Assembly: GCF_037975245.1 (NCBI RefSeq) | Contig: NC_092573.1 | Coordinates: 23,029,265 to 23,093,264 of the forward strand | From: Apostichopus japonicus | Taxonomy: Eukaryota; Echinodermata; Holothuroidea; Aspidochirotida; Stichopodidae | DNA length: 64,000 bases | Direction: 5' to 3' | Part shown: positions 14,907 to 61,834 of the stretch, one piece after another | Position numbering within the stretch: position 1 is the first letter of the stretch | Layout: each line of letters opens with the position of its first letter | Translations under genes and position numbers: made by a program | Notes under the pieces: generated by a model | Database searches by the model: none | What the model saw: only the letters and a program-made list of their open reading frames with translations | What the model was told of the DNA's origin: nothing

Positions 14907-17900
14907 ATGGACGAAACAGAGGATACGCCACTCAATGAGAACATGACTACACTTGAACTGATCAGGTTGAACTTGAGTGATTCAATACTTCTACTTCTAA
15001 AGTTCTATACAGTCTAGGGCCTAGGCTATAGCATGTAATTCGTAAATTAGGCCAGACCCTAAGTAAGGCCTATCCTGCCTAGGCCAAAGTAAGTGACAAA
15101 TGGACATGCTTTGAAAATGTACCGGTCAATGTTTGTTGACCAGATCTACTGACATAAAAACTGCCAAACCAGCCGTTGTGTTAAAATAGTTTCTAACTTT
15201 CTCATGCATCCAAATGATGTTAAGAACCTATGTGAACAAAACTTGACCAAGGAGATTTCGATGTGCATTACATATTCAACCTGGCCAGTAAGTGAGCAGA
15301 CTTGGATGTTAATACTTTGGATATTTATCCGTTCATCGGCCATTCTAACTTCTAACCTTTTCTCTATAGGACTATATATTTACTGTGTGGCAGACGTAGG
15401 GACAGCTGTTGTTCTAGCTCAACCTTTCTTGTACCATAAGCATTGCCCTCCAACTTCGAAGTCTAATTTACCACCACGTTGCACAAAACATGACTAAAGT
15501 TCTCTCTTTCCTTAGAGGGTTAATTCAATTTGAAAGAACTGATGTCATTTACTTGGTTTATTACATGATAACTTTGCTCTTTCCCGTTGGTTATTTCAGG
15601 TACAAGGATCATCTTGAAGCTCTGAAATCTACACTCCAGGCTGCAATTGCCTCATCTCAACAAGATGTTGGCCAAGAAGAGAGAGATAATGTTGAGAGCA
15701 GGTAGCCTAGACTTTTGTAGCAAACTTTGCTCGCCAATTTATACCATCCATGAGAGAACCTCAATGCATGCTGCTATTTTAAAGTTACCACAACTTCCCT
15801 GTTTTAGCCCTCCATGTGAATGCCACTCCCTTTGTGGTGCTTTTTCTATTTAATGCACTTGTGAATATACACCAGTACTTGAAGACACTGAAATGATCAT
15901 GAACGAAGATTTCAAAGCAACATCTTGAAATCATCTCTATTTTCAAACATAACAGTTACCAAAGGAAGAATTATTAGCCTAATTGTGCCTAATTAAATTA
16001 TTGTGTTTCAATAGCCAAGAATGCAATTGAAGTGAAACTATTTAGACACAGCAAAGTGTATCTATTAGAAGAGGTCAGAAACAAGCCATCATGGTAGAGA
16101 TTACATGTTGGTAGTTACATAGATCATAGGTTTTTTTTTAAGGTATTTGTGTCATTCATTGTCAACTATTACATTTTTGTTTACCTTTCTTTCAGTATTC
16201 TGGAGTTGCAACAAGGACTTTTTAAGCAAACAAGTTTTAAATCTTCCCAATCATTAGCTTTACAAAGGTAAGACAGATTTTTACAAATTTCTATTTTTAT
16301 GACAAACAGTATTGTCCAATTTGTTGTATCATTGAGCAACAGGAAGGACCATTATAATGTCTGCATTTGGACCGTTCCATTTATTTTACAGGTTATTGAA
16401 GGGAATATTTTATCCAATGTTGCATCACTAAATTCTACACAATGTGTTCAAAGTGATATGCAAGTGCAAACATGCATAAAGCAATTTTTGTACACAGGAA
16501 GCATAGCATATTTTAAGAGACCAAATGCATAGCCTTCAAACCTGTTATATAAACTATGAACTGTGAATTATTCCTTGTATCGAATTCTGGAAAACAGGCT
16601 GACCTTGATGTTATGTCAATATTCTTTAAAAACTTCTTCAAAATTTAGTCATATATCAGAAACTGCAGTGTCATCGCTTTAACCATTTCAAACTCTTAAT
16701 GTGTAATGCAATAGAAAATATCTTAACATTTCTCTCGAAATTCCAGATTAAATGTTGAAATTACTCTTCACTTTACCCTACAAATAATCAAGTTCTTGTG
16801 ATATCAACAAAATGCATTATACCTGGAGGTCATCAGTATTGTCACCAAAAATGCTAGAAAGATTTAAAAAAAAACTAATAATCATGGCATTTAATTTTGT
16901 GCCATCTACAAAGTTTTTATCGTCTCAAGGATGTTTTCATAGTCAAATTGGAGTCTGATATTTTAAGCTCACATTTTGAGCATTGGAACATTTGACAAAG
17001 AAGTTTTGAAAACCTTGCAACCCATTTTAAGACAATTAAGATTTGCAAACAATACTGATAACCTGCGTGTGTTGTAATTTCTATTTTAAAACAGACTCCA
17101 GATGGGTGGATCACTATTGGAGGTGATGTTCAATGATGACGCTCCTATCGACAAAGGAGCAAAAGAGCAGATCAAGGCACTGATTGCCCAACAGAGGGAC
17201 CTGACAGCCGAAATCCTGGCCCACCAGAAGCACTGTGAGGAGTTGCAAGAGGAACAGGAAACCATTCAAGGGGAGAGAAGAGGTTGGTGGGAATACATTT
17301 TGAAAGGAAATTGCTTGGAAGTAAAAATTATGTTTCCCTTTCGAAAGTCATTAAGTTATAAGCAGGGGAGAGAAGAGGTTGGTGGAATACAGTTTGAAAG
17401 GAACTTTGCTTGGAAGTAAAAAATTAAGTTTCCCTTTTGAAAAGTCATTAAGTCATAAGCATTGGTTGCCTTTCCTTGCTAACATTTTTTCACTTAACCC
17501 CCTCACCATATTTTGCTGTTGAGATCCTTTTTTCCTGATACATTAGTGAACCTTATCTCTACAGCAACTTTAAATCGTGTAAGGGTAATGTTGCAGTGAA
17601 TTTCCACTCATCTAAAGGCCAACGGTTGGTAAATTATGGTAATAACCTGATGATGACAATAACCAGGGTTGAAAAATATTGCTTAAATTTTTGTTGCCTT
17701 GCACCACAGATTTCCCCAACTTTTCCTGCCCTGGCAACTTCAGCCAAGAGCTATATAACCAGTTAATGTTAGGCTTATAAATAGTGTTTACATGGGTTAT
17801 CCGGGTACCCGCCCGACCCAATACTACCCGGTTCCTAATTTATTACCCGAATCCTACGCAAAGTGTGATTTCAAAAAAGAAAATTCAAATCTACGGTTAG

Positions 17901-20900
17901 GCAGATTTCCCATTGACTTAGTGTGGTGTTAGGCTAAAATATGTGGTCGAAGATAACAGCAATAACGAAGGTACCCGCCCGACGAGATACTACCAGGTTC
18001 CTAATTTATTACTCGAATCCTACGCAAAGTGTGATTTAAAAAAAAAAAAAAATTGCAAATTGGTTAGGCAGATTTCCGATTGACTTAGTGTGGTGTTAGG
18101 CTACCATGTGGTTGAAGATAACAGCAATAACAAAAGTATTCCATGGATATCTTATAACTGCGTCACAATTTCAGCTAATAAACAAATGGCTATGCTAGCC
18201 TTACCCCCTTGACTTAGTGTGGTGTTAGGCAACCCTGGGTCGAACGTAACAGCAACAATAAATGTGTTCCATGGATATCTTATAACTGCGTCACAATTTC
18301 AGCGAATAAACAGATGGTTAGGCTTTGCTTGATTTCTCATGCATTGACTTAGTGTGGTGTTAGGCTACCATGTGGAAGAAATTATTATTTATTCATTGGT
18401 TTATTTCATAGAAGGAAAGGCTGACAAGGAATTTTACGACATGTTTATGGATTATAGACGGGATAACTAAACAAGAGCCCAAGGGCACTGTGGTTCCTTG
18501 CTTGGGGTATATGACAATACACATAATATTATCAAGCAAGATTGGGCTCAAATAGTCCAAGTAATTGTGGTCCTACATGTTCCCATAAAGTAACCAACAC
18601 TATAGCCAACACTTTTGTGATCACAAAATGTGATCGGATTTTTTATCAAAAGGCACTTTTGAGATCTAACTATGGCGTCGAAAATGTAAGAAATATAAGA
18701 GACCTACAAGCGCGTCAACAGATGTGATAACATTGGTGACCTCAGATGACATGACCTTTAAGTTTCAAAATGTTCCACCACCCCATTCACAACTTGTCCC
18801 AAAATATCAACCATGTCACACCTTGGCATTGAAATTTAATTGCATTAAATGTCAAAAAATTAACTTTGAACTTGTATACATAACTTCACACACAAAGGTC
18901 ACCCGGAGGTCAACCAATTGACATTTTTGATCGGTGAGACCTAAATAGAGCATGACTGTAAAAATTCAAACATTTTTTCTTTGCACATTTTCTCCCCCCC
19001 CCCCAAAATACTACTTTTTTAACATTAGCTGACCTTTGGTGACGTTGGATCACATGACCGTTAAGTTTGAAAATATTCCCCTATACCATTTGCAACTTGT
19101 CCAAAAAAATCAACCTTGTCACACCTTGGCACTGGGAGTTATTGCATTAAATGTGTGAAAATTAACTTTGACCTCATGTAACTTCGCACACGAAGGTCAC
19201 ACAGGGGTCAACCCATTGACATTTATGATCAGAAGGTACCTTTAACATCTGAAAATAGCATCGAAACTGTAAAAATCCACAAAACACGAAAAGGTCACCA
19301 GAGGTCAAGGGTCACCCAGATGCGGGTCGACAATTGGATTACATTGAAGCAACTCCCAACCCTAACGGACAATTTGTTCTCAAGTTATCGCAAAAATACT
19401 AGTTTTTTATCATTAATTGACCTTTGGTGACCTTGTATCACATGACCGTTAAGTTTGAAAATATTCCCCTATACCATTTGCAACTACTCCAAAAATATCA
19501 ACCTTGTCACACCTTGGAACCGGGAGTTATTGTATTAAATGTATGAAAATTAACTTTGACCTCATGTAACTTCGCACACGAAGGTCACACAGGGGTCAAC
19601 CCATCGACATTTATGATCAGAAGGTACCTTTAACATCTGAAAATAGCATCGAAACTGTAAAAATCCACAAAACATGAAAAGGTCACCAGAGGTCAAATTG
19701 AGGTCAAGGGTCACCCAGATGCAGGTCGACAATTGGATTACATTGAAGCAACTCCCAACCCTAACGGACAATTTGTTCTCAAGTTATCGCAAAAATACTA
19801 GTTTTTTATCATTAATTGACCTTTGGTGACCTCGGATCACATGACCATTAAATTTGAAAATGTTCCCCTATACCATTTGCAACTTGTCTCAAAATATCAA
19901 CTGTGTAACACCTTGGCACTGGGAGTTATTACACTAAATTAGGGTTGGGCGATATATCGACAAATATTATTATCGCGATAATTTTTTTTCAAGACGATAT
20001 TTTTTGAGGATTGAACAAATGACGATAATTTCTTGTGAAAGAAATTTGAAATAGACGTAGAAAAAAAAATTCTCCGTTTTATGTGTAAATGTTATTGTAG
20101 CATTCCATGGTTAAGAAAGTTGAAAAGAAATATTTTATCAACTTCATTTACTGACTTTTGAACTTAGTGAAAACCCGTTCTTTACAACATTGACTGTATA
20201 GAGAACAAAACTCTGAAAATCAGTAGAGAAATTTCCAATTGTGTACGAAAAGTAAGTTGGTACACCTTTCTAATTTTACGAAAGATCGAGCAAAATACTT
20301 TAGAAAAATTCACGCGAAACTGGCATATCGTGCTAAATGCAATAAGTGTCATGTAAACAAGGCTCTAGTACACCCATTTATGAATAAACCAGAAGACCAC
20401 ATCTGGTGTAAAGCGGGGGAAAGAAAGTATTTCAGGGGCGTATCCAGGATTTTCCAATAGGGGGGGCGCCAGGCATGAATGATGACGCCGTCCTGGGGGA
20501 TGGGTCTAAGCGTACAAGAAAATTTTGGGATTAACAAACCCTCTAGATGGCCGGAAACAGCACTTCCCGAGGTTTCCAAGCGGCATATACCCAACTTTAA
20601 AATAGGGATGTCATGTCCGAAATATCTCATAATCAGGATCCAAAATACTTTCTTTTTTTTAATTTCGGGTGTTATTTTGGGAAAATTGCCCCTGTCAATC
20701 TTGTTTCAGGCGCAACGTTAGAATGTTCGAGAGCTCTGTTATATTATTTGATGAAGAAAATGGCCTCATGCAGGCTATTATAGGCCTATACACATGCAAT
20801 ACACAATTACACATAGTTACATTCCTGGGTACCGATTGCTAGGGCATCCAGGTGAAACGTGTATTAAGCATTACCCTGGTTACATGAGATTCTCAGCTGT

Positions 20901-23900
20901 TCGAGGGAACATGTAAGTGTGTAGGCCTACTATAGGGCATGGGCGGAGAAACAGGGGGGGTTGGGGGGGTTTTAACCCCCCCACTTTTTGAAGAGGGGGG
21001 GTTGGCCCACACAATCAACCCCCCCTAGTTTTTGCCTGTAATGTTCTGTTGTAGCCTATGTTATGTGCTCCAAATGGCATAATAAATCAAATTATTAAAT
21101 TTGAAATTGTTAAAGTCATTTCAACCTTTTACCTGGTAGGCTACATCAACAATTAACGACCGAAAACCGAGTTAGAATTGACCCACACATTATTTCTAGC
21201 CCCTTTCCCCCACCTTGCGCATTGGAACTTGTAGCTCATAGCGCTAACTTCACCCCACAACAGACATACACAAAATAACGTTTTGTTGCTGTTGAATAGC
21301 TTTGGAACTGTATACACTTGCCAACTTCAACGAGGTGAAGGAAGGAAAAGAAAAAGCAGAAAGAGAGAAAAGGAGAAAAGGATGGAGTAGAAAATACGGC
21401 AAGAAAACGGGAAGAGAAAGAGGAACAGTGACAAAATTATTCGAATTTGTAAAGCAAACAGCAGATATCACATCATATCAGTGATCATGAAAATGGCGTT
21501 CCACGATAAACAGCCTCCAAACCATGGGCGCAGATCCTGGTGAGGACAGCGGGACGCGTCCCCACCAACTTTTTCAGTAGTGGGGACATGATATACCGTG
21601 TCCCCACCAATTTGTCTTGACCAATAGCTGCATTTCAAGTTCCCCTGTATTGAACTTTGGCGCAGTTTGATCCAGCATTGTGCAAATGACATGCAGCAGT
21701 TCTCATTTTATTGTATTTTATCCACAGTTGTTAAATATAGGACGGAAATCGCATTTGCGGCAGTCTATATTTGTTTTCTGGGAGAGGACCCCAGACCCAT
21801 CGTATATACAAAAGTCTACTTGGATTATTTGTCCCCTGATTTTCTTCTACAGACGCCCATGTATTTCTCCAAACTAAATTTCTAAGCCATGAGATCTAAA
21901 ACTTAAGGAGGTTTAGGAGCATCATTAGGTCTGGGAAGTGTTATTTCCGGCGATCTGGGAGGTATATTTGCCCCAAAAAATCGTACGCTACGCGCGAACC
22001 CATGGTCGCGCTCCGCTTAGATAGTGTCATAGGACAGCCACGCGTCCCCACCATTATCCAAGACTGATCTGCGCCCATGCTCAAAACTGTCGATGTGTGT
22101 AGTATTCGGTTTCGGAAATATTTTATTTTTATTTCCTTCAACGAAATATTTTAGTAGCTGTCTGAATTTTCGAAAATTCCCTAACCAACATTCTTCATCA
22201 TACTTCATCATACTCGTGCAATTTTGACCCGTCTGTTAGGGTTTGAAGAAGGTTTTTCTATATCGGTTGTCCATAGATGATATTTTGTGCAACATTATGG
22301 GTATGTTTTGAAGTGAATTTATTCACGAGAATTGTGAATTTTCTAATTCTGAACAGTGGGGCTGACGGATATTGTGGGCCGCGATGAAGAATCACCTACA
22401 AAAGCAATGATCCACAGGATATGTGATGAAGTCGAACATGATGTGTGACTGGTGACAATCTTCAAAAAGGTTATAGATGAGAAAAAAAGTATTTGGAAAA
22501 AACTTGGTTCTCAGGCAAAAGTGTACATATGGTTGGTCAGTTTCAGGCCCGAGAAGTGCCATTTCCGGTGATCTGGGGGTACCAAAACCAGAAATTTGCT
22601 TGTACGCTGCGCGCCAACCAATGGTGGTGCTCCGCTTAGATAGTAATTCGCGCCCCCCGGGTTAGAAAATCCTGCATACGCCCCTGGTTAAATGCAGCTT
22701 TTCAAGGCCTGGGCAGTGCCATTTACTGCAATCTGGGAGGCAATATTTGCCAAAAAATTCTTGTGCACTTCGTGCCAACTTATGGTCCACTTAGATAGTG
22801 AGCCAGCAGTTATGACTTTTTATTTCATCAATGGCCTGCAACCCCCCCACTTCTGACAAGAAATCTCCGCCACTGCTATAGGGCCTATATGAATACTATG
22901 AGGGTGCATATATGTACTATATCAATGCCGTGGGCGCAATAATACATTTTGTTGTTATAGGGCCAATGAAGCCTACAGTCAACTATTTTTGCTTTATAAA
23001 GACGCTTTATTTGAAAAGATCGCACTGCGTTTATGGTAGGCGAGAAATGAAGCTAAAAAAGAGCCGTACATTAACGAAGATGCATAAATGTAGGCATGAA
23101 AATATTCTTATCCCTGGCATTTGGTGGGGGGGGTATGGTGCATTACATCCCCTCCACCCATTTTCATGGGGGGATATATCCCCCCTCCACCCAGGATCGC
23201 CGCCCATGGCCATATGTGATCCATTTTTCGACCTTAATAATAAGCAACATTTCCAGTAAATATGGACACAAAATGCACAATTTAGTATGGCTGGCATGTC
23301 ATTTAGTGTTTATAGTGATAATACAAACACAATTACCATCTATGTTTCTAAAACTATTATGCCGCCGAACTTCGCCAGAGCCTTTTTTTGGCAAACAAAA
23401 AATAAAGCATATGGGAGGGGGGGGGGTTGAGCGATCACCGACATCTCACATAAAGGTCGTCATCAATTTTTTTTTTTTTTCTAAACTTTTTTTTTTTTGG
23501 TGACGGCCAATAGGGGGGGCGCGCGCCTGTTGCGCCCCCCCTGGATACGCCCCTGTATTTTCTAGAATTTCCCCCCAAAAATAATAATAATAATATCCTA
23601 CCATAGTTAAGTGCATAGTAAGTAGCCTAACCACTTCGTCGGTTACAGATCTCACGTAACAACAAAAACACAACTAATTGTATTTTGCGAAGTTGACGAT
23701 TTCTACAAGGACATGGAAACAATATTTAGCATTAAGTTAATCACGCCTGGTGGCCTAAAACATGGAATTACAAGGTTTACTTTCATAAAGATGGCCATAC
23801 TGTAGCTATTGGGGCCTTGATATCGTGCTACAGTATGTCTGTATGGTATAGACTGTGCCTCGTGTATCATGGGGAATAGTTTGTTTTGTTCATGCGGAGG

Positions 23901-26900
23901 AGTCGGTTGGCTTGAGGTGTGTTTTACTTACCTTAATGTTACGGGGATATTTACCTACTTTCCTTGAACGTCTAAGATAATATTTCGCATAACTTTACGG
24001 ATCCTTTACTGACTGACCTAATTAATTCTAGGGTGGAGCCAAAAAAGTTTACTCCATGAAAAGTTTTTTGGAACCGTGCCAAAAATGTTAACAAACAGGT
24101 GTTAGACAGGGGGGTTGTTTTGCAAGGTACCTGCGAAAATTTGAAGCACATTAGCCTACCGTGATATTTAAGTACGGTTAAACACTGCAATTGTAAACTG
24201 ATTGTTAGGCAGTCTAGAAACGGCCCCCGGGGCTTTGCCGAACGTAGTTTGTTTCATAATATCGACAGTTTTGTAAGTAAAACTTTATAAAGATTGTAAG
24301 ACAGATTAATTCTCTTTTCATTTTATCACATAATATACTGTAGCTACTCTAACTTGTCATTTTAAAACTTTCATAAGTTTCGTGACAATTTAAATTCATA
24401 AAGTTAGTCAGTATTTTGAATCCTCAATTGCGAATTTTTTATCGCCAGACACGCAAAAATACTTAACTTTTCCGGGGGCCTTCGCCCCTGGACCCCCACA
24501 AGGGGTTCCACCCCTTGACCCCAACGGGGCTCTAAGGCGGGCCCTGAACCCCACGCCGTTATACTCGGTGTGTTTGCTGCGTGAAAACACCGGTGGGAAA
24601 TCGGCAGTTGTTTTTAGTGTGTTCGCGAACACACTAAAATCTACAAGAAAATATTATCGTAATTATCGAAATATCGCGATAATTTTTGAACTATTTATCG
24701 TGACATTAAAAAGCAAATATCGCCCAACCCTACACTAAATGTCTGAAAATTAACTTTGACCTCATATAACTTAACATACAAAGGTCACCTTGGGTCAACT
24801 TATTGACATTTTTGATTGATGAGACCTAAATTAGAGCATCAAACTATACAAATTCAATCATTTTTTTCTTTGCCCATTTTCTACCCCCAAAATACTAGTT
24901 TTTTTACATTAATTGACCTTTGGTGACCTTGGATCACATGACTGTTAAGTTTGAAAAAGTTCCCCTATACCATTTGCAACTTGTCCAAAAATATCAACCA
25001 TGTCACACCTTGGAACTGGGAGTTGTTGCATTAAATGTCTGAAAATTAACTTTGACCTCGTATATTTTCGCACAGGAAGGTCACACGGGTGTCAACCAAT
25101 TGACATTTTTGATCGGAAGGTACCTTTGATATCCAAATCTAGCATCAAAACCAAACATTTTCTTTTTTGCTCGTTTCCTCCCAAAATAAGCACATTTTTT
25201 CTAATGTGACCTTTGACCTTTTGACCTTGGTTTCAGATGTAGTTTAATCTCCTGATTCCAAAAAACAAAACGACAAGTCTGTTCAACCATCCTAACTCTG
25301 ACCGAAAAACTTTGACCCCATATAACTTCGCACATAAAGGTCACACGGGGTCAACCTATTGACATTTATGATCAGAAGGTACCTTTGACATCTGAAAATA
25401 GCATCAAAACTGTAAAAATCCCCAAAACATGTAAAGGTCACCAGAGGTCAAATTGAGGTCAAAGGTCACCCAGATGCGGGTCAACAATTGGATAACATTG
25501 AAGCAACTCCCAACCCTAACGGACATTTCGTTCTCAAGTTATCGCAAAAATACTAGTTTTTTATCATTAATTGACCTTTGGTGACCTGGGATCACATGAC
25601 CATTAAATTTGAAAATGTTCCCCTAACCAGTTCACAACTTTTCCCAAAATATCAACCTTGTCGCACATTGGCACTGGGAGTTATTGCAGTTTTAATATTT
25701 TCGGTTTTTGGACCATAACTGACCTTTGGTGACCTTTGTGGGCACCAAAAACAATAGGGCACACCTTCTCCATATGGCGGATCTATAGTCCAAGTTAAGC
25801 CTCAATCCAACATTCCCTTATTGAGATAGAGCGTACCCAAGCAAGTGTCACAGACGCACACACACACACACATACACACGCACACACACACATACACACA
25901 CACGCCAACCTGACTGCATAGGTTCCTTTTGCTAAAGCAAGGAACCAAAAATAATAAGCGCAAGTGGCTTTTTAGAAATCGTGTATTCCAAATGCGATCA
26001 AATTGCGCGAATCGCGTAATCTCGCGGCTAATGCGAACCCGGGGCCTGCATGATAGATCTAGTAACAACTGAGCTAAAGTAAAGGGATATTTTATGGTCT
26101 GATCCAATAGACGTGGAGAGGAAGCATAAGCAGCGGCGGCAAGGCGATGTTAACAACATTACTACTAATTAGTAGTAATGTTAATTATATTAAGTAATTA
26201 ACAAGTTTATGACAGAAAAAAAGCAAATAGATATTATTGAGGAAGGTTTTATACCGTTTTTGAACATATTAAAAACATTGTCAGTAGAGAATATAATTCA
26301 TTTATTATAGCATTTAATATGTAATTTCTTGAAAATCGTGATACACGGGGGGAAAACAATTTTTTTCCCGGGTACCCGGATACCCGACGGGTAACGGCCC
26401 TCGGGTACCCGGTTCCCGATTTTTGGACCCGTGTAAACACTACTTATAAACCACTGCAATGAATGTAATATTGAAGGACAAGACAAAGCATTGATACTTT
26501 TTTTGAAAAGGAAAGTGATACTTAATAATGTTTAGGTTCTGTTATTGACCCTAATGCAACCAGCTTACATGTGATTCTGCTGTTTATTTCTCAGAAGTTA
26601 CGACACAGAATAGAGCCCTCATGAGTCAGTTGAAAGAGTTACAACGGAAATCACAACAGCCAAAGGAAGATGGCCATAAAAAGTAAGTGGCTGCCTTCCC
26701 AAACATATTTGCCATGGCAATCATAAACAGAAAAATGACTAGGAAAAATTGCTAAGATGTGCAGTAAAAATTTGTTGGCTTATCCACATGAAGTTACAGA
26801 AACCACACTGTAACACTTTCTACCAACCTCAAAGTTAGATTTGAACATTCACTGCTCAGCACTTAGTGATGTTGAAGTTCGTGGAACAAGAATAAATCAA

Positions 26901-29410: not shown

Positions 29411-32400
29411 CTGAAAGAAAAGGAAACATTTCATGATACTTCAATGATAGTAAACTAGTATTACCTCCACCACTCACCCCCCTACCACCCCTTCATTATA
29501 ATGCATGATTACCTCCACCACTCACCCCCCCCCATACCACACCTTCATTATAATACATGAATACCACCACCACTCACCCCCCATACCACCCCTTCATTAT
29601 AATACATGAATACCTCCACCACTCACCCCCCCCATACCACCCCTTCATTATAATACATGATTACCTCCACCACTCACCCCCCCCCCATACCACCCCTTCA
29701 TTATAATACATGATTACCTCCACCACTCACCCTCCCCCCCCCCCTTCATTATAATACTGTCTTGACCATCCCATTCCAAAGAATTCAAGACTGGTGAAGA
29801 TCTTAAACAACTCATAAGTTTTGTTTCTTAAATTGGTCAAATAATAGTACTAAACACAGGTTGTGATGTTGCATGAACAAATAATAATGGGTATCCCAAA
29901 ATGCTGGTCTATTACTAGCTTTTGGCAGCCAGTCCTCAAAGGTAAAACTGTTATGGTTTGACGTGTTCAGTGACTTCATTGTTTCTGTATTAGGGGTTGT
30001 AGACATGGCACGATTAAGTATCAAACATGTTTAGTCCAGGTTTTTTTAAGTTTGGAGACAGGGTGACCTGAGTCGCAACTCGTACCAACAATAGTCCTCA
30101 GCAGTAACTGCCATAACACTGCTATTATCAGTACCACCTCAAAGAAGCACTACATTTTGTCATCAATCCCATGTTTGTACCACTTTTCCTACAATTTTCC
30201 TTTGATGCTCCCCTTACTATGGAAGCTTGTACTACTTTGTTATTTTTGCATCGAACAAATAAGACGATAAGAGTCTGATGTTATGGAATTCAACTGATAT
30301 ATTGATAGATCGACTGTAACGGAAAGTATCAACTAAATCAATTACGACTGCTCAAACCCCAGCGTTTCATCCCTTGTTCTGGCTCGTACAAACATGTAAT
30401 ATTAATGACATCGGGCTCGTACATACTACATAAACACTAACATAACACTACTGAACAGATAATATTTACTGAATTTAAAGTGCAGTAAATTTCCAATACT
30501 ACTGAACTTTGGGAAATGCTTCATGAACTGGGAAAAAGATATTTTAATCTTACCTGTTTCTTTTTACAATAGCAACACGCCCTGTGAAAGGAGAGAAATA
30601 AATTTGATTGAGAGAAATAGCAAAATAAAAATTCACCACGAGGAGTTTGCAACATTTATAAACCTACCATAGTGTAACTACTAACTAGCTTCCAATTCAA
30701 TTGGGAAAATGCAATATCGTCTGTCGACTATTCTCCATTAGGCCAAAGAGACTATCTCAACATGCCTCCATCCCTCCACCCCACCCCCCCTCCCCAACAC
30801 ATCCATACACAAACAAACATTCTCACTGACTGTCACAGGAACCCAAACGTAGGTTTCAAAATGGAGGGGAAGGGGGAAGGCATCAGATCGAGTTCGGTGT
30901 GGTGTTGAAATTGCCAACCACATATCATACCCCATTTTGAAAATCATTGCTGTTAAATTTATTGGAGACAACTGCCTTCCCCCATCCCCCAATGGCATCC
31001 GGGGATATATATAACACTTGTAATTCACTTTCGTATTGTCCTTTGAAGAATAAAATAGTTGTTTTTACCGAATGAGTAGCAGGAGGCCATTCCTTGAATC
31101 ACATTCACATACAGTAGTGTAGACTATCTACTTCTCCATAGACATTGGTTGTCAACTTACCATGCTGGAGTATGTTTCATAACATGACTTTTCACACTGT
31201 GGCCATCATGGCATGACTCTTTGCACGGTCTACAGATCCCTGATGGAGAAGTAAAAAAAGTATAGATAAAATAATGACCCAAGAATAATCCACACGTATA
31301 TTGATCAATCTTCAAACAATATATGGTCCAAATATCTTGCAACAAGAGAAACAATGACGTTGGCCAAAATCAATGTGTCACGTTAACTGCACATTAATTA
31401 TTAACTCAGCAACTGAATTAATATAAGTAGGCTAGGGGTGGAGAACCATCTCTGATCTATAGGTGTTATCTAAAGTGTCACACACCAACTAAACAATTAA
31501 TAACTAACACACCTCATGTTGAATCAGTAGTTATGGCTAATTTTGTACTGACACATGACATTTTCCAAAAATAACAAGTTTCTAGAAAAGACGAAACAAA
31601 AGTCGATGTCAGGTTACCACAGCATTTGCCCCGTTTTACTGCTGTCGTCATATATTGGATAAAGGATACATAATTTGGAAGGATTAGACAAAAACAAACA
31701 GGTTGGTCCATACCCAGGACGTTTTATCCAATAGGCTGATGTGGCAAGTTCTTGTCGGTTCTTCTAATAGCACAGTTTGCATTGCAGCAACTAGACAGAG
31801 ATTAGACGATGTATCCAGGGGGGTAGGAAGCTTCCAAAAGTGGGGGGGGGGGCACAACATCAGAGGGGCACTTTTTCATTCCACAACTACCACTAGTTAT
31901 GCTATAAACTGTTACACACCGGCCATATCACTTACAAATATATGATGTGTTAGTATGCTATCAATACTACTTATTGAGATTTTTTATTGTTAACCGTGCT
32001 ACAAAAACAAATGGGATGCCATTTTAAAAATAGCATGTACAGACTAAAAATAAATAATTAAAATAAAATATTAAAATTAACAAAGGCTTAAGATATCCAA
32101 AATACAGTTCTTCATCAAAGGGGCACATTTAATTGCCAGTAGGGCACATTTGCTTTTTTGGAAGAAAGTGGGGGAGGCATGTTCCCCCCCCCCGGCTCCT
32201 ACCCCCCTGGATGTACCTGGCATCAGTGGCGGAGATTTCTTGTCAGAAGTGGGGGGGTTGCAGGCCATTGATGAAATAAAAAGGTATAACTGCTGGCTCA
32301 CTATCTAAGTGGAGCGCCACCATGAGTTGGCGCGAAGTGCACAAGAATTTTTTGGCAAATATTGCCTCCCAGATTGCAGTAAATGGCACTGCCCAGGCCT

Positions 32401-35400
32401 TGAAAAGCTGCATTTAACCAGGGGTGTATGCAGGATTTTCTAACCCGGGGGGCGCGTATTACTATCTAAGCGGAGCGCCACCATTGGTTGGCTCGCAGCG
32501 TACAAGCAAATTCTGGTTTTGGTACCCCCAGATCACCGGAAATGGCACTTCTCGGGCTTGAAACTGACCAACCATATGTACATTTTTGTCTGAGAACCAA
32601 GTTTTTTCCAAATACTTTTTTTCTCATCTATAACCTTTTTGAAGATTGTCACCAGTCACACATCATGTTCGACTTCATCACATATCCTGTGGATCATTGC
32701 TTTTGTAGGTGATTCTTCATCGCGGCCCACAATATCCGTCAGCCCCACTGTTCAGAATTTGAAAATTCACAATTCTCGTGAATAAATTCACTTCAAAACA
32801 TACCCATAATGTTGCACAAAATATCATCTATGGACAACCGATATAGAAAAACCTCCTTCAAACCCTAACAGACGGGTCAAAATTGCACGAGTATGATGAA
32901 GTATGATGAAGAATGTTGGTTAGGGAATTTTCGAAAATTCAGACGGCTACTAAAAAATTTCGTTGAAGGAAATAAAAATATACCAGATATTTCCGAAACT
33001 GAACACTACACACATCGACAATTTTGAGCATGGGCGCAGATCAGTCTTGGATAATGGTGGGGACGCGTGTCTGTTCTATGCCATCTAAGCGGAGCGCGAC
33101 CATGGGTTCGCGCGTAGTGTACGATTTTATTGGGCAAATATACCTCCCAGATCGCCGGAAATAACACTTCCCAGACCTAATGATGCTCCTAAACCTCCTT
33201 AAGTTTTAGATGTCATGGCTTAGAAATTTAGTTTGGAGAAATACATGGGTGTCTGCAGAAAGAAACTCAGGGACAAATAATCCAAGTAGACTTTTGTATA
33301 TACGGTGGGTCTGGGGTCCTCTCCCAGAAAACAAATATAGACTGCCGCAAATGCGATTTCCGTCCTATATTTAACAACTATGGATAAAATACAATAAAAT
33401 GAGAACTGCTGCATGTCATTTGCACAATGCTGGATCAAACTGCGCCAAAGTTCAATACAGGGGAACTTGAAATGCAGCTATTGGTCAAGACAAATTGGTG
33501 GGGCCACGGTATATCATGTCCCCACTACTGAAAAAGTTGGTGGGGACGCGTCCCGCTGTCCTCACCAGGATCTGCGCCCATGGTTTGGAGGCTGTTTATC
33601 GTGGAACGCCATTTTCATGCTCACTGATATGATGTGATATCTGCTGTTTGCTTTACAAATTCGAATAATTTTGTCGCTGTTCCTCTTTCTCTTCCCGTTT
33701 TCTTGCCGTATTTTCTACTCCATCCTTTGGTCCTTTTCTCTCTTTCTTCTTCTTCTTTTCCTTCCTTCACCTCGTTGAAGTTGGCAAGTGTATACAGTTC
33801 CAAAGCTATTCAACAGCAACAAAACGTTATTTTGTGTATGTCTGTTGTGGGGTGAAGTTAGCGCTATGAGCTACAAGTTCCAATGCGCAAGGTGTGGGAA
33901 AGGGGCTAGAAATAATGTGTGGGTCAATTCTAACTCGGTTTTCGGTCGTTAATTGTTGATGTAGCCTACCAGGTAAAAGGTTGAAATGACTTTAACAATT
34001 TCAAATTTAATAATTTGATTTATTATGCCATTTGGAGCACATAACATAGGCTATAACAGAACATTACTGGCAAAAACTAGGGGGGGTTGATTGTGTGGGC
34101 CAACCCCCCCTCTTCAAAAAGTGGGGGGGGTTAAAACCCCCCCTGTTTCTCTGCCACTGCCTGGCATCACTTATATACTTACATGTCAAAGCACAATCAC
34201 TGCACGCAAAGTAGTCCATAACCATTCCAACATCCTTCCTAAATAACTGGATGAAGCATGATTTGGGAAGTTCGCTAAAAGAAATAAGAATAATCGGAAT
34301 AATCGTGTGACAATCAAAAAATGGAATAGTACTATACCAACATACATATGTCACAATATATGCAATATGTCACATTTTTTATTTTTCAATTTTTTTCTCA
34401 TGCCCAATAGATGCAATACATACATAAGTTTACGCTGTCCCAACAGTTGTACATGTTTAATCTATTGCTTCATTAGGTGAAAATAATAGAGGTTTTCACA
34501 ATCACAATTATGACCAGGCAGTCGGTCAAATTAAATGTATCAGCCAGCGAGTAAAAAAGTAGCTTCTAATATGGAAGTACAGTTGGGAAGAAAGGTTTGC
34601 AGGGAAAGACACTTTTTCTTCTTTTATGTCTTTTGGTGATGTTGATATCCACGGAAAGTATTGAGAATAGGTCAAAATCTCGTCGTTGACACCCAACGTC
34701 AGTTTTCTCATTATTTAGGATAAATAATATGTACTGCAGCAATATGCGTGTCTAGTTCAGCCTGTTTCATGTTTCATTAATTTTAAGTATTTTTGTAAAT
34801 TATATTTTTTGTCTTTGATCATGACATTAGTATGTACCTTTTCTTATTAATATTTTACTCTAAATGAAATAAAATGAAACTGTTAGCAAACTGCTTATAC
34901 ACTAGAGAGCCTGTGTAAGATAACGTGTTAAAGTAAGTTAGCCTGACGTTTCGATCCTAGCAGGATCTTCTTCAAAGGCTAAATGACAATATTTCACTCT
35001 GTAACATTTTCCTGCATGGCATTTAATAACGTATAACTAACATACTTACCTACTTACCACTTACTTACTTAACTGTTGTATGGAACATAGATGTGTGACA
35101 TAGATGCTAAACAGTCAAACTTTACCTTTGAAACTTCATATTTCCAAATACGATGACCTCTGACCCCGATGTTAGCTGATACGTCAACAGTGGGTAGGAG
35201 TTTTCACTCATTACGACCAGAGGGGCAGTGGACATCACATACTGCTCTGTAAGCTGCTGCAGGTAAATGCTGTTGACGAGGTCGGCGGTCAAACAGACTT
35301 GACCTACTGCAGATGGTCTGGATATCAAAATAAAGAAGCATATGAGCAGATATAAGTTTAAAGCTGCCAAACAGATGAGCACATTTTCACCCTTCTCCCT

Positions 35401-38400: not shown

Positions 38401-41400
38401 TGACAAACGACGACAAATTTTTCGTAAAATTGCTTATCGAATGTGGATGGAGAATAAGTAACTTGCCTGTCGTAGGCATCGACGACAGAGGAAAGACATG
38501 TTTGCATTGTATCGGATGGAGATGGCATGGCTTCACCGCCTGGAGAGGGAAGACATAACATTGGTAATTGTTTTGGGTTGCTACCAATTAGCCTGTAAAC
38601 CACTGCCGACAATCGTCATTGGTTACAGTATGAAATGAAATAGGTAACATGTGATTGCAACGGAATGTCTCCCATTCAAAAAATATATGAAGGAACAATC
38701 ACTCGTATCATACAATTCAAATCGAATAACAACTTGAAACTCCTTGGAGTAACCGATCTGACAGACAAGTTCAAAATACGAAATGTAAAAAAGACTTGTT
38801 TTTGACCAACAGAAATAGTAAAAAACTTTAACAGTTGAGTATACTACACTGTACGATGTGCAACACTTTCTAAAGATTGACATACCACCTACCTGCTAGC
38901 GTAAGAGAAGACATCACTTGCTCCGATAAATCTCTTTGTAGCTTTTGAGAGAACAATTCAAATTCCAAAAGAGTCTTTTTGAGATGTTCTGAAAGAAAAA
39001 TAAAACACAAGATAAAGAGAAATACATACACCTCTTATTCTTAACTTTTACAAACAGCAACAAGAAAATACTTGGATACTTTATTAAGTGAATTTTTTTA
39101 TTTTTTTTTATTTATTATTATCAGCATATCCAATTTTATCCCTTTCAAGTTATTTGCAAGGTTGCATATATCACTGAGTTAACGCCTCATTTTGCATTCC
39201 AATATCAACAAAAACTAACCATCTCCCTCTATTCTTGGTACAACTGTGTCATTGATAAGCACACAATCATGACGATATCTTCTTTTCCTCAAATTTTGGC
39301 TCATTTGGAGAGGTGCAGCGAATGAAAAACTTCAAACCGAAACAGAGTCCCATCTTTGTTGTTTTAGCCGAAATGAAGACATAAATCTTGGCGAATGGGC
39401 CAGAAATTTGACACAAAAAAGGTCCCTCCCCAATATTTAAACCTTAAAAGTGCACTTTTCAGAATCTGATAAAGGAAGAAAATCATATTACGGACATACT
39501 TTGTAGTACAGGTTTAATAGCTGCATTTGGTATGATCACAGAACCTCCTTGGACAAGTTCACCTGCAAATAAGATTAAAGATATCATAAACAAACACAAT
39601 GCCTCAAACCCTTCATAACAAGAAGAAGGCAATTTTAACTGATAAAAAGACTAGGAACAATATTTCAATTAAATCCTCATCCCCCCTCCCCCCACCCTCC
39701 ACCAAAACCAATGCATTTTGCAAATCTAACCAATCAAATGAAGTTCTGCTTCAGATACTCTAAAATCATCTGGTGTATCAATTAATGTACTAAACTGACA
39801 ACTTATCTTCTTGCTCAATATATTGCAAACACAACAAGCTTCCTTATCATGTAATTCATTCTTTAACGTGCAGATCTATGAATTGAGCCCATCTCCTTGC
39901 AAAATACACTATCATTCTTGATATTGTTCACAACCAAAGATGAAACAAATATTTCAAAAGCTTTATAAACATTTTTTGTCATCCTCCACTCACTGGTAGT
40001 TTGATCTGCAGGTCAGATAGCTCTCAGATGAATTGTACAACACACTAGAGTTTACAGTCAAGTCGAGTCATTACCAGTGATTTTACTGACTCGAGTGGAG
40101 TCATGGACTGGAGTGGAGTCATGGACTGGAGTGGAGTCATGGACTGGAGTGGAGTTATGAACTCAAATGGAGTCATGGACTCGAGTGGAGTCATGGACTC
40201 GAGTGGAGTCATGGACTCGAGTGCAGTTATGGACTCAAATGGAATGGACATGAGTGGAGTCATGGACTCGAGTGGAGTCATGGACTGGAGTGGAGTCAAG
40301 GACTCAATGGAGTCATGGATTCGAGTGGAGTCATGGACTCGACTGGAGTCATGGACTCGAGTGGAGTCATTGACTCGAGTGGAGTCATGAACTCGAGTGG
40401 AGTCATGGACTCGAGTGGAGTCATGGATCCGAGTGGAGTCATTGACTCGAGTGGAGTCATGGACTCGAGTGGAGTCATGGACTCGAGTGGAGTCATGGAC
40501 TCGAGTGGAGTCATGGACTCGAGTGGAGTCATGGACTCCAATGGAGTCATGGACTTGAGTGGAGACATGGACTCAAACTGAGTCATGGACTTGAGTGGAG
40601 TCATGGACTCGAGTGGAGTCATGGACTTGAGTCACTGAATTACCACGATGGGGACAAATTCACAGGTCACTTCAAGTCATCTCACTTTTGACATTTAGTG
40701 ACTTGATTCACTGCTGGTTTTTAATACGACAGTGGCTTCTGGAGACTTACGTTCAGCATTAGCTGCTGCCTGATTGAAGTAGGTTGCTGCAGCTTCTTTC
40801 TTCTGTGTTTCGATGACCTGCACAAGATTGTTAAACCCCTTGTCCTGAATAAGTTGGTCTTGATTAAGTCTCTTATTGCAAACTGGACACTTCTTCCTGC
40901 AGTGTATAGATAGATAAGGAAGAATATTTTAACAAGTTTGTATAAAGACATGCAAATGTCATACTCAACAACGGAGAGTCCACCTCATATATGATGACAT
41001 ACACAACACTTAAAGGGTGTGAAGACTCGCACAAAAAGAAACGTCTAATGCCGGTAATCTGAGGTGTAACAGAAGCGTTAGACACCACCATCGATCCCAG
41101 AAAATACACACACAGCTTGCTACCGTCGGTAATTAGACACTAGTGTACAGTCAGTACATACAGCTGCAGTCAATACCCACAGCACATTATAAAAACAATA
41201 CAGCGATGGACATCTCAGGTCCAGCTAAAGATAACAAGGTATCACGTTTCACTACAGTCTGCATTTTGTAGCGACAAGAAGAAAACGTCATATGCAATCA
41301 ACGGAAAGTTAACTTTTTCGGAGCGCGGCACAGGGTTTGGGGCGAGTCTTCAATGCCTTTAACTCATAGATCATTTACATAAAAAAATAACCCAAAATAT

Positions 41401-59760: not shown

Positions 59761-60393
59761 ATGATCATTAGACCTACAGTGTGTATCCTGGTATGGCATT
59801 CATCCAACATAGCTTTAAACAGTAGCTATAGTGACCACATTGCTGGTAGGTAGTAAAATCAATTATATCAGTAATTACTAGATTTACTAAACAAAATCAA
59901 TCTTCTGGTTAGCAAAAACAAACCGATAAACACACAGTGTGACACAGAAAGTCAGGCGAATAGATGAGCATTACCATAGCGATGGCTATGAAGGTTGTTT
60001 GCTGAGGATCAGATAGTCAGTTCAAAGTAAAGCTATCATCTGCGGAGTGACCTTTTCTATATTACTGACATGTAAACAAAACTTGATAGTATTAAAAGAT
60101 ACAAATAGCTAGAATGGTCACATGATATGCTATCTATACATCTTAAAAGAGGAGAGACTAAGTTGCTGATCTTGTTACAAAATGCATTATAGATGCACAA
60201 CTGTCAGATTGAAATTGATATACATTGTATGTCCACAGATGTGTACGTGGGAAAGGATGGAATGGGTAAAGGTACGGGTAAAGTTGAGGTAAGAGGCAAG
60301 AGAGATAGAGAGATGGGAGACGAGGGCAAAGAAGGGGGAGTCAGAAAAATTGAAGAGGAGAAGTAGTTTACAAAAGTACAATATGTTCATAAG

Positions 60394-61065
60394 AGAGTAA
60401 ATATCCCCTTGTAATGAGTATGCGTACATATTCCTTTGTAATGAGTATCAGTAAATATCCCCTCAAGTACAGAGTATGAGTAAATATCCCCTTGTAATGA
60501 GTATGAGTAAATATCCCCTTGTAATGAGTATGAGCAAATATCCCCTTGTAGTGAGTATGAGTAAATATCACCTTGTAACGAGTATGAGTAATTATCCCCT
60601 TGTAATGAGCATGAGTAAATATCCCCTTGTAATGAGTATGAGTAAATATCCCCTTGTAATGAGTATGAGTAAATATCCCCTTGTAATGAGTACTGTATGA
60701 GTAAATATCCCCTTGTAATGAGTATGAGTAATTATCCCCTTGTAATGAGCATGAGTAAATATCCCCTTGTAATGAGTATGAGTAAATATCCCCTTGTAAT
60801 GAGTATGAGTAAATATCCCCTTGTAACGAGTATGAGTAATTATCACCTTGTAATGAGTATGAGTAAATATCCCCTTGTAATGAGTATGAGTAAATATCCC
60901 CTTGTAATGAGTATGAGAAAATATCCCCTTGTAATGAGTATGAGTAAATATCACCTTGTAATGAGTATGAGTAATTATCACCTTGTAGCAAGTATGAGTA
61001 AATATCACCTTGTTATGAGTATGAGTAAATATCCCCTTGTAATGAGTATGAGTAAATATCCCTCA
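60394..61065 (+). repeat. 27-bp minisatellite, about 25 units
   Basis: The unit is GAGTAAATATCCCCTTGTAA plus TGAGTAT. It is open in several frames on both strands for up to 207 codons because 27 is divisible by 3. Variant units (AATTATC, ATCACC) recur, suggesting higher-order amplification. Confidence 0.93.
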
Positions 61066-61834
61066 AATGATCCCTTGGTATCATTATGAGTAAATGCAAG
61101 GCTCTATGTGGAAGTACAAAACACCCTTTTTTGGGGGGAAAATATCTAGATAGTAGATTTTAAACTTGCTATGAGTCTAAATCCATTAGGGTGAGTACAA
61201 GCAAAGATGTATTAGCTAATGCTAGAAATTTAGAATACCAGTCGGAGTATGGACTCTTTAAAACTCTGGTGTAAACTGGTTAACTCTGGTATAAAGTGGG
61301 CGTTGCTATGATAGTATGGTGATTGGTAGTGACTTGTTTAAATTGTATCTGTAAATGTACCATGTAACAGGATAGCTCCATAATCATATGTACTTGGCAC
61401 AGTAGTTATAGTCACCTAACGCAAACTTTTGTCATAAAAAACGGTAACCGATCATGAACTCAAACCTAGCCTAGAGTGTATACAGAGTTAAGAGTTGATA
61501 TCCCATAGGACACATTAAACCAACCTACAGTCAGAAGGTCACTGCAATGTTAGAATGTTGGAATTTCATGATTCCATTAAAACCATCAGTTGGAGGAAAA
61601 TTCTATAATGATATGTAATTGAGGTCTTTACACTCGTAATTTTTATGCATTAACAAAAAATGAATAAAAAAAAGCCTTGATTGGAATTTTCAGAATGATA
61701 TGTGAATGATTTATGAATTAAGGCTGTCAACATTCTGTCTGTTGAAGTAAGTAAAGTTTGGAATGACACAATGACACATTACCAGCTAGTGATTGGTTAA
61801 TATTAATAAAGTATTTGCGGTGGCATTTGAAGCA

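Follow-up and report, generated by a model that had tools for sequence, protein, structure and literature searches.

Transposons nested in a CENP-H intron of Apostichopus japonicus: a probable history of five arrivals at the site and one older insertion that came with its host

An intron of the CENP-H gene of the holothurian Apostichopus japonicus has grown from about 0.6 to 9.3 kb by mobile elements landing inside mobile elements. It lies in a window of 64,000 bp (the whole stretch of DNA that was analysed; NC_092573.1, positions 23,029,265-23,093,264), and genome-wide searches covered the assembly of 671,581,487 bases in 35 contigs. We read the stack, at a probability of roughly 0.86, as five arrivals at this site – E1, a HINE-like element whose core is a GGTCA array, E3, E4, and E5 carrying E6 – together with one older insertion, of E6 into E5, that was made off-site. 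An earlier sequence-only reading had described a Russian-doll stack of transposons at 17774-26450 in one CENPH intron, with at least five insertions whose relative order could be taken from depth. Those coordinates hold to the base, the flanking exons match Pfam PF05837, and at least five insertions are indeed found, plus that of E6 into E5 elsewhere; the outside-in order stands for E1 to E5 and fails for E6, which was already inside E5 before arrival.

The evidence on E6 comes from other copies of E5. In the alignment searches the best 40 places were scored from a longer candidate list, and loci opened elsewhere in the assembly carry L-numbers (L002, L028 and so on) as labels. With the E5+E6 composite as query, 38 of the best 40 of 6,300 candidates were full length, namely the window's own copy and 37 others that include a second copy in the window; the remaining two, one split by ~370 bp and one stopping short, both include E6. 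The second window copy (34159-32224) is 95.9% identical to the stack copy by BLAST over 1,978 columns, a few flanking columns included. Seven E5 copies were read, each flanked by a different exact 8-bp duplication (AGCCTTTC, TCACCGGG, GTGGTTAA, GCTCCCCG and ATGTGCGT in L002 to L006). In every one of them E6 has an identical insertion point and its left duplication is altered, reading CTGCAAAC in L004 and CTCCAAAC in the other six; a single entry of E6 is therefore the simplest account: most simply, E6 would have entered an E5 ancestor once, off-site, and the pair would then have spread under E5's ends. Judged from these copies, E6 was inside E5 before E5 reached this intron and is not the youngest event, so that the order is reversed relative to depth. 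Empty E6 sites in E5-type DNA were matched at 250 places with ≤3 mismatches, versus 0 for a reversed control pattern, and the listed sites read CTCAAAAC in all but two. An E6-like piece with other flanks (L010; 90% over 176 columns) suggests that E6 is an element in its own right.

At each of the five inner junctions there are relatives that lack the insert. The sequence-only reading had proposed excising each element at its duplication and aligning the rejoined host elsewhere in the genome, and the rejoined hosts do match uninterrupted relatives. E4 without E5 was matched at 99% over its full 484 bases by all 40 scored places (best 40 of 1,088 candidates), and, for E3 without E4, all 40 scored relatives are continuous across the E4 site at 95-97%, with 38 covering the complete 412 bases (1,065 candidates). 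A copy of E1 with the array and without E3 (L028, contig C3), which has its own duplication ATGAAAAC, aligns through the E3 site at 91.9% over 3,940 columns, and 37 of the 40 scored matches are plain E1, lacking the array (best 40 of 2,222 candidates). The left junctions array|E3, E3|E4 and E4|E5, in turn, each have a single match in the genome at ≤3 mismatches, that of the window. From this geometry and these private junctions we infer that E1 to E5 arrived outside-in. Because E6 was already inside E5 on arrival, nesting gives the order of arrival only where the junction of a level occurs at this site alone.

Substitutions were also counted, in comparison sets that differ in size. Those private to the window copies number 13/1,169 in E1 (1.11%, 0.59-1.90), 17/1,648 in E3 (1.03%, 0.60-1.65), 9/1,173 in E4, 6/1,349 in the array ends (0.44%, 0.16-0.97) and 5/1,938 in E5 (0.26%, 0.08-0.60). 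Relative to the family consensus the counts are 24/1,349 for the array, 29/1,648 for E3, 10/1,173 for E4 (12 substitutions if the consensus is built without the window copy) and 20/1,938 for E5. Dating by divergence from consensus had been suggested from the sequence; the dates obtained are compatible with the nesting order and do not prove it. That E5 was the last to arrive follows instead from its position in E4.

Several points weigh against our account. The private count of the array is out of line with the nesting order, the low private counts of E5 and the array hinge on one close sister each (L002 and L068), and relative to consensus neither E5 nor the array is lower than E4. The two E6 empty sites that were opened (L019 and L020) lie in a relative of E5 that is longer and rearranged; rightward of the junction it stays contiguous for only ~16 bp, at 89-93%. 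The genome query held E6, so that E5 copies without E6 rank lower and stay uncounted, and the junction searches covered the left junctions only.

The stack is made up of non-autonomous DNA transposons, and the enzymes that move them in trans would be encoded elsewhere. Movement in trans is proposed because no transposase or other coding remnant was recognised in the 9 of 18 reading frames scanned (≥75 aa, wholly inside the stack), no search for autonomous partners having been made; the scan gave two matches, both to domains of unknown function and both below the cut-off. The sequence shows a hAT-type E1 inserted in the CENP-H intron, a HINE-like (Helentron-type) element in an A-run of E1, a hAT-type E3 in the tandem core of the HINE-like element, E4, with its 5-bp duplication, in E3, and a copy of E5 in E4. 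E6 had been inserted earlier and off-site into an ancestor of E5, in a single event to judge from the copies read, and the pair has multiplied as a unit with E5's ends.

The features are listed in Table 1. Short inverted ends of the kind seen here are hAT-like, and the duplication pairs of E1, E3, E5 and E6 stand directly outside such ends; by their 8-bp duplications and short inverted ends these four are assigned to the hAT type, and E4, by its 5-bp duplication, is classed as hAT5-like. The chance that two given 8-mers match is ~2e-5, and that they match at 7/8 or better ~6e-4. Three exact 8-mer duplications had been noted in the sequence-only reading, and all three (CTTATAAA, CACTAAAT and CTATAGGG) are exact and in place, with CTCCAAAC/CTCAAAAC agreeing at 7/8. 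That reading had given no duplication for the CAGGGGCG-ended element, E4; the element is present, flanked by exact 5-bp duplicates, TATTT. A duplication of 8 bp was considered for E4 and rejected, as AAGTATTT/TATTTTCT mismatch whereas the 5 bp match.

Table 1. Features of the stack, its flanking exons and a second E5 copy (positions in the window; an empty strand cell means that none is assigned)
Feature	Positions	Strand	Remarks
CENP-H exon upstream of intron	17096..17282	+	PF05837 on joined exons; 17096 is the start of the stretch translated; donor GT at 17283
E1 left target duplication, CTTATAAA	17774..17781		exact pair
E1, putative hAT-type, non-autonomous	17782..26442		8,661 bp, net 1,186 bp without inserts; ends TAGTGTTTACAYGGGT; 15/16 terminal bases match
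GGTCA-array element, HINE-like	18472..25946	-	net 2,674 bp without E3; 5' end 25946 (GGTTCCTTGC...), 3' end 18472 (...GCCCTTGGGCTCTTG)
E3 left target duplication, CACTAAAT	19932..19939		exact pair
E3, putative hAT-type, non-autonomous	19940..24732		net 1,665 bp; ends TAGGGTTGGGCGATAT; 16/16 terminal bases match
E4 left target duplication, TATTT	20428..20432		exact pair
E4 (CAGGGGCG element), hAT5-like	20433..23555		net 1,177 bp; ends CAGGGGCGTATCCAGG; 16/16 terminal bases match; 5-bp duplication
E5 left target duplication, CTATAGGG	20930..20937		exact pair
E5, putative hAT-type, carrying E6	20938..22875		net 1,373 bp without E6; 10/16 terminal bases match; composite family ~1.94 kb
E6 inside E5	21523..22079		557 bp; flanks CTCCAAAC 21515-21522 / CTCAAAAC 22080-22087, 7/8 match; 14/16 terminal bases
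E5 right target duplication, CTATAGGG	22876..22883		exact pair
E4 right target duplication, TATTT	23556..23560		exact pair
E3 right target duplication, CACTAAAT	24733..24740		exact pair
E1 right target duplication, CTTATAAA	26443..26450		exact pair
CENP-H exon downstream of intron	26595..26682	+	in-frame join to upstream exon, PF05837; acceptor AG 26593-26594, donor GT 26683
Second E5 copy with E6 inside	32224..34159	-	own exact duplication ATGCCAGG (32216-32223, 34160-34167)

Sister copies show the same kinds of flank. Among 23 plain E1 loci opened, exact 8-bp flanks occur in 16 of the 18 copies with both ends found, four of the 16 being simple ATATATAT and thus weak evidence each; L026 and L058 have no exact 8-bp duplication, though both ends were found. 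Two plain E1 copies, L055 and L054 (contig C1, 16970797 and 21259617), have a common duplication, AATTACAT, cluster together in the tree, and are perhaps a segmental duplication. Exact 8-bp duplications were found in five of six E3-family loci, the sixth (L015) giving no right end. At the six E4 sister loci the duplication is 5 bp in five and 6 bp in one; six aligned sister copies contain ~159 bp that the window E4 lacks. Within E5, positions 22550-22686 resemble an inverted E4 start (66.7%, 141 columns) and end in ATACGCCCCTG, an E4-type end fragment. A motif of ~33 bp occurs three times in E5/E6 (21927-21959, 22545-22577 and 22705-22737), and other loci match this portion of E6 weakly.

The GGTCA array had been described from the sequence as enclosed by the outer element, which it is; its own insertion had gone uncounted. 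Ten of 39 other scored matches were opened (from 825 candidates), and the array borders recur in them at unrelated places: CAAGAGCCC follows AA in all ten, and GGAACC precedes AAAAA in eight of ten (L061 and L066 gave no right end). The target is thus A/T-rich on both sides, with AA at the left in 10/10 loci and AAAAA at the right in the eight with a right end, which agrees with insertion at TT or T-rich sites; these A-runs leave the ends of the element uncertain by a few bases. On its recurring borders, the array has ends of its own and is a mobile element in itself. Read on the minus strand, it consists of GGTTCCTTGC with a palindrome, a (GT)n run, the TGACC tandem core, GCAAGGAACC, GCCCTTGGGC and TCTTG; in the three array copies printed, subterminal inverted repeats are formed by GGTTCCTTGC at the 5' end and, close to the 3' end, GCAAGGAACC. 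The 5' palindrome has a folding z of -2.90, with 0/200 shuffles folding as well, and the 3' end (minus the last three bases) does not stand out (z -1.15, 27/200 shuffles). Taken together, the element is probably of Helentron type, and we call it HINE-like and not a proven member. Its core contains many AGGTCA-type half-sites, several of them as close direct repeats, with 46 RGKTCA-type sites once E3 is removed; close direct AGGTCA-type repeats are the form bound by nuclear receptors.

Within E1 the array sits in a CTAAAAAATAAT run, which has 6 A in empty E1 versus 3 + 5 at the filled site, so that the run hides whether two A were duplicated or are the element's own. A genome search for the E1|array junction at ≤3 mismatches gave three places, all with 0 mismatches (the window, L027 and L028); in L027 the two outer flanks differ from one another, and those of L028 are its exact duplication. 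Such a shared junction suggested that E1 and the GGTCA element form a composite family, the window copy included, that travelled here together in the manner of E5+E6. The E1 shells and their array cargo speak otherwise. In the shell tree (21 rows, 1,192 columns; five loci without clear ends left out) a single clade of the three composites is rejected with a P value of 1e-5 in the approximately unbiased test (p-AU), and the best tree has three changes, two of them forced by well-supported branches; in the tree of array ends (11 rows, 1,351 columns; two loci left out) that clade is rejected at p-AU 3e-7. Pairing the window with either of the other composites is rejected by shell (2.6e-8 and 4e-102) and by cargo (8e-8 and 3e-4). 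The nearest relative of the window shell is a plain E1 (L025, 97%), and that of the window array is L068, which lies outside E1. Since both trees reject a common origin, the array in the window's E1 is an independent insertion, and we regard arrival of the two as a composite as very unlikely. L027 and L028 could share one origin, their pairing being rejected by cargo (8e-6) and not by shell (0.08); L044 is closer to each of them than either is to the other. When the L028 shell and junction served as query, 39 of the 40 matches scored ended at the junction, which shows that plain relatives exist (2,507 E1 candidates).

Three occurrences at one base raise the question of a preferred target. From rough counts, 825 array and 2,222 E1 candidates over ~4.03 million A/T runs of ≥5, about 0.45 arrays would be expected at that one A-run; the number of runs is extrapolated from the window, and searching only that site introduces a bias. 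Two further array hits there have a chance of ~0.08, and therefore we claim no hot spot. That the HINE-like element homes to this A-run – with no fewer than two independent insertions, and probably three, all in one orientation and at one base, in E1 of two subfamilies – is a doubtful suggestion; if true, a rolling-circle-type element would be using an abundant cut-and-paste element as a docking site.

Other histories of the stack can be set against the one preferred here. E1 may have arrived already loaded with the HINE-like element, and perhaps with E3 to E5, after assembly at one earlier site and a single move by cut-and-paste. Such a move leaves no second copy, so the private junctions are compatible with it, which counts against our account as well, and the divergence counts do not separate E1, E3 and E4; a late move of an 8.7-kb load would, however, be less likely than that of a 1.2-kb element, and we think this course unlikely. 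If instead every level, E6 included, had been inserted here one by one from the outside in, the nesting geometry alone and the private left junctions of E3, E4 and E5 would be accounted for, but E5 copies flanked by other duplications, both genome-wide and in the window, hold E6 at that base too, which refutes this course for E6 and makes it extremely improbable as a whole. Repeats commonly cause misjoins, and an assembly artefact joining unrelated repeats might be suspected on that ground; with paired duplications exact at four levels, insert-free relatives elsewhere, and a reading frame that is intact across the intron, it is hardly credible. Five arrivals, the last of them E5 with E6 inside, remain our preferred reading.

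The host gene is identified by the joined flanking exons, which match PF05837 at 80.8 bits (cut-off 29.9), and the region of the upstream exon (17088-17285) has a single match in the genome. The intron spans 17283-26594 (9,312 bp) and comes to 643 bp once E1 and one duplication are removed, close to the 650 bp or so given by the sequence-only reading. The end of the upstream exon and its splice donor are tandemly duplicated 95 bp downstream (17269-17461, 90.9%), placing a second donor-like site within the intron. Elsewhere in the window, long tandem repeats at 40045-40691 and 60368-61089 are open in several frames on both strands.

Among the open-access papers searched on nested miniature inverted-repeat transposable elements (MITEs), hAT elements and dating by interruption, none was seen on this locus or these families. 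E1, E3, E5 and E6 resemble hAT non-autonomous elements (e.g. the Mar MITEs of Drosophila) in their 8-bp duplications and short inverted ends, in having many dispersed copies, and in that no coding capacity was recognised in the stack frames scanned; they differ in that E5 has been amplified together with another element inside it. Nested MITEs in plants were reportedly described by Jiang and Wessler in 2001. Carrot DcSto elements are a further plant case (PMC3695323, in the portion available), like the stack in that insertions of element into element are read from duplications; here, however, a nested pair, E5+E6, has itself become a family of high copy number, and tests of the remaining inner levels spanned the genome. 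E4 can be compared with hAT5, a hAT group with 5-bp duplications according to the accessible part of PMC12730594: its duplication is 5 bp in the window and at five of the six sister loci, the 6-bp duplication at the remaining one being a difference. With HINE/DINE-1, as far as the excerpted text of PMC4067079 describes them, the array has in common an A/T-run target, the inverted subterminal GGTTCCTTGC/GCAAGGAACC, a 5' palindrome, a microsatellite and a tandem core; it differs in that its 3' palindrome does not stand out in folding and in that its 3' subterminal repeat lies ~20 bp from the end, versus 38-60 bp in the mite families.

Such a stack is ordinary in a genome rich in repeats (47.33% in Apostichopus japonicus, by the part of PMC10344927 available); its resolution is unusually good, being that of a transposon stack read to the base, with inner levels tested against the whole genome. 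A GGTCA minisatellite easily mistaken for host satellite DNA is here the core of a mobile element. Ordering families by which interrupts which is an existing method (PMC5657132, as set out in its available portion), and such methods, none of which was run here, could score every copy of E6 in E5 as a late event of its own. What the copies read indicate is one E6 insertion, afterwards copied with E5; this is a trap for ordering by depth, and the second E5+E6 pair in the same window makes that trap plain.

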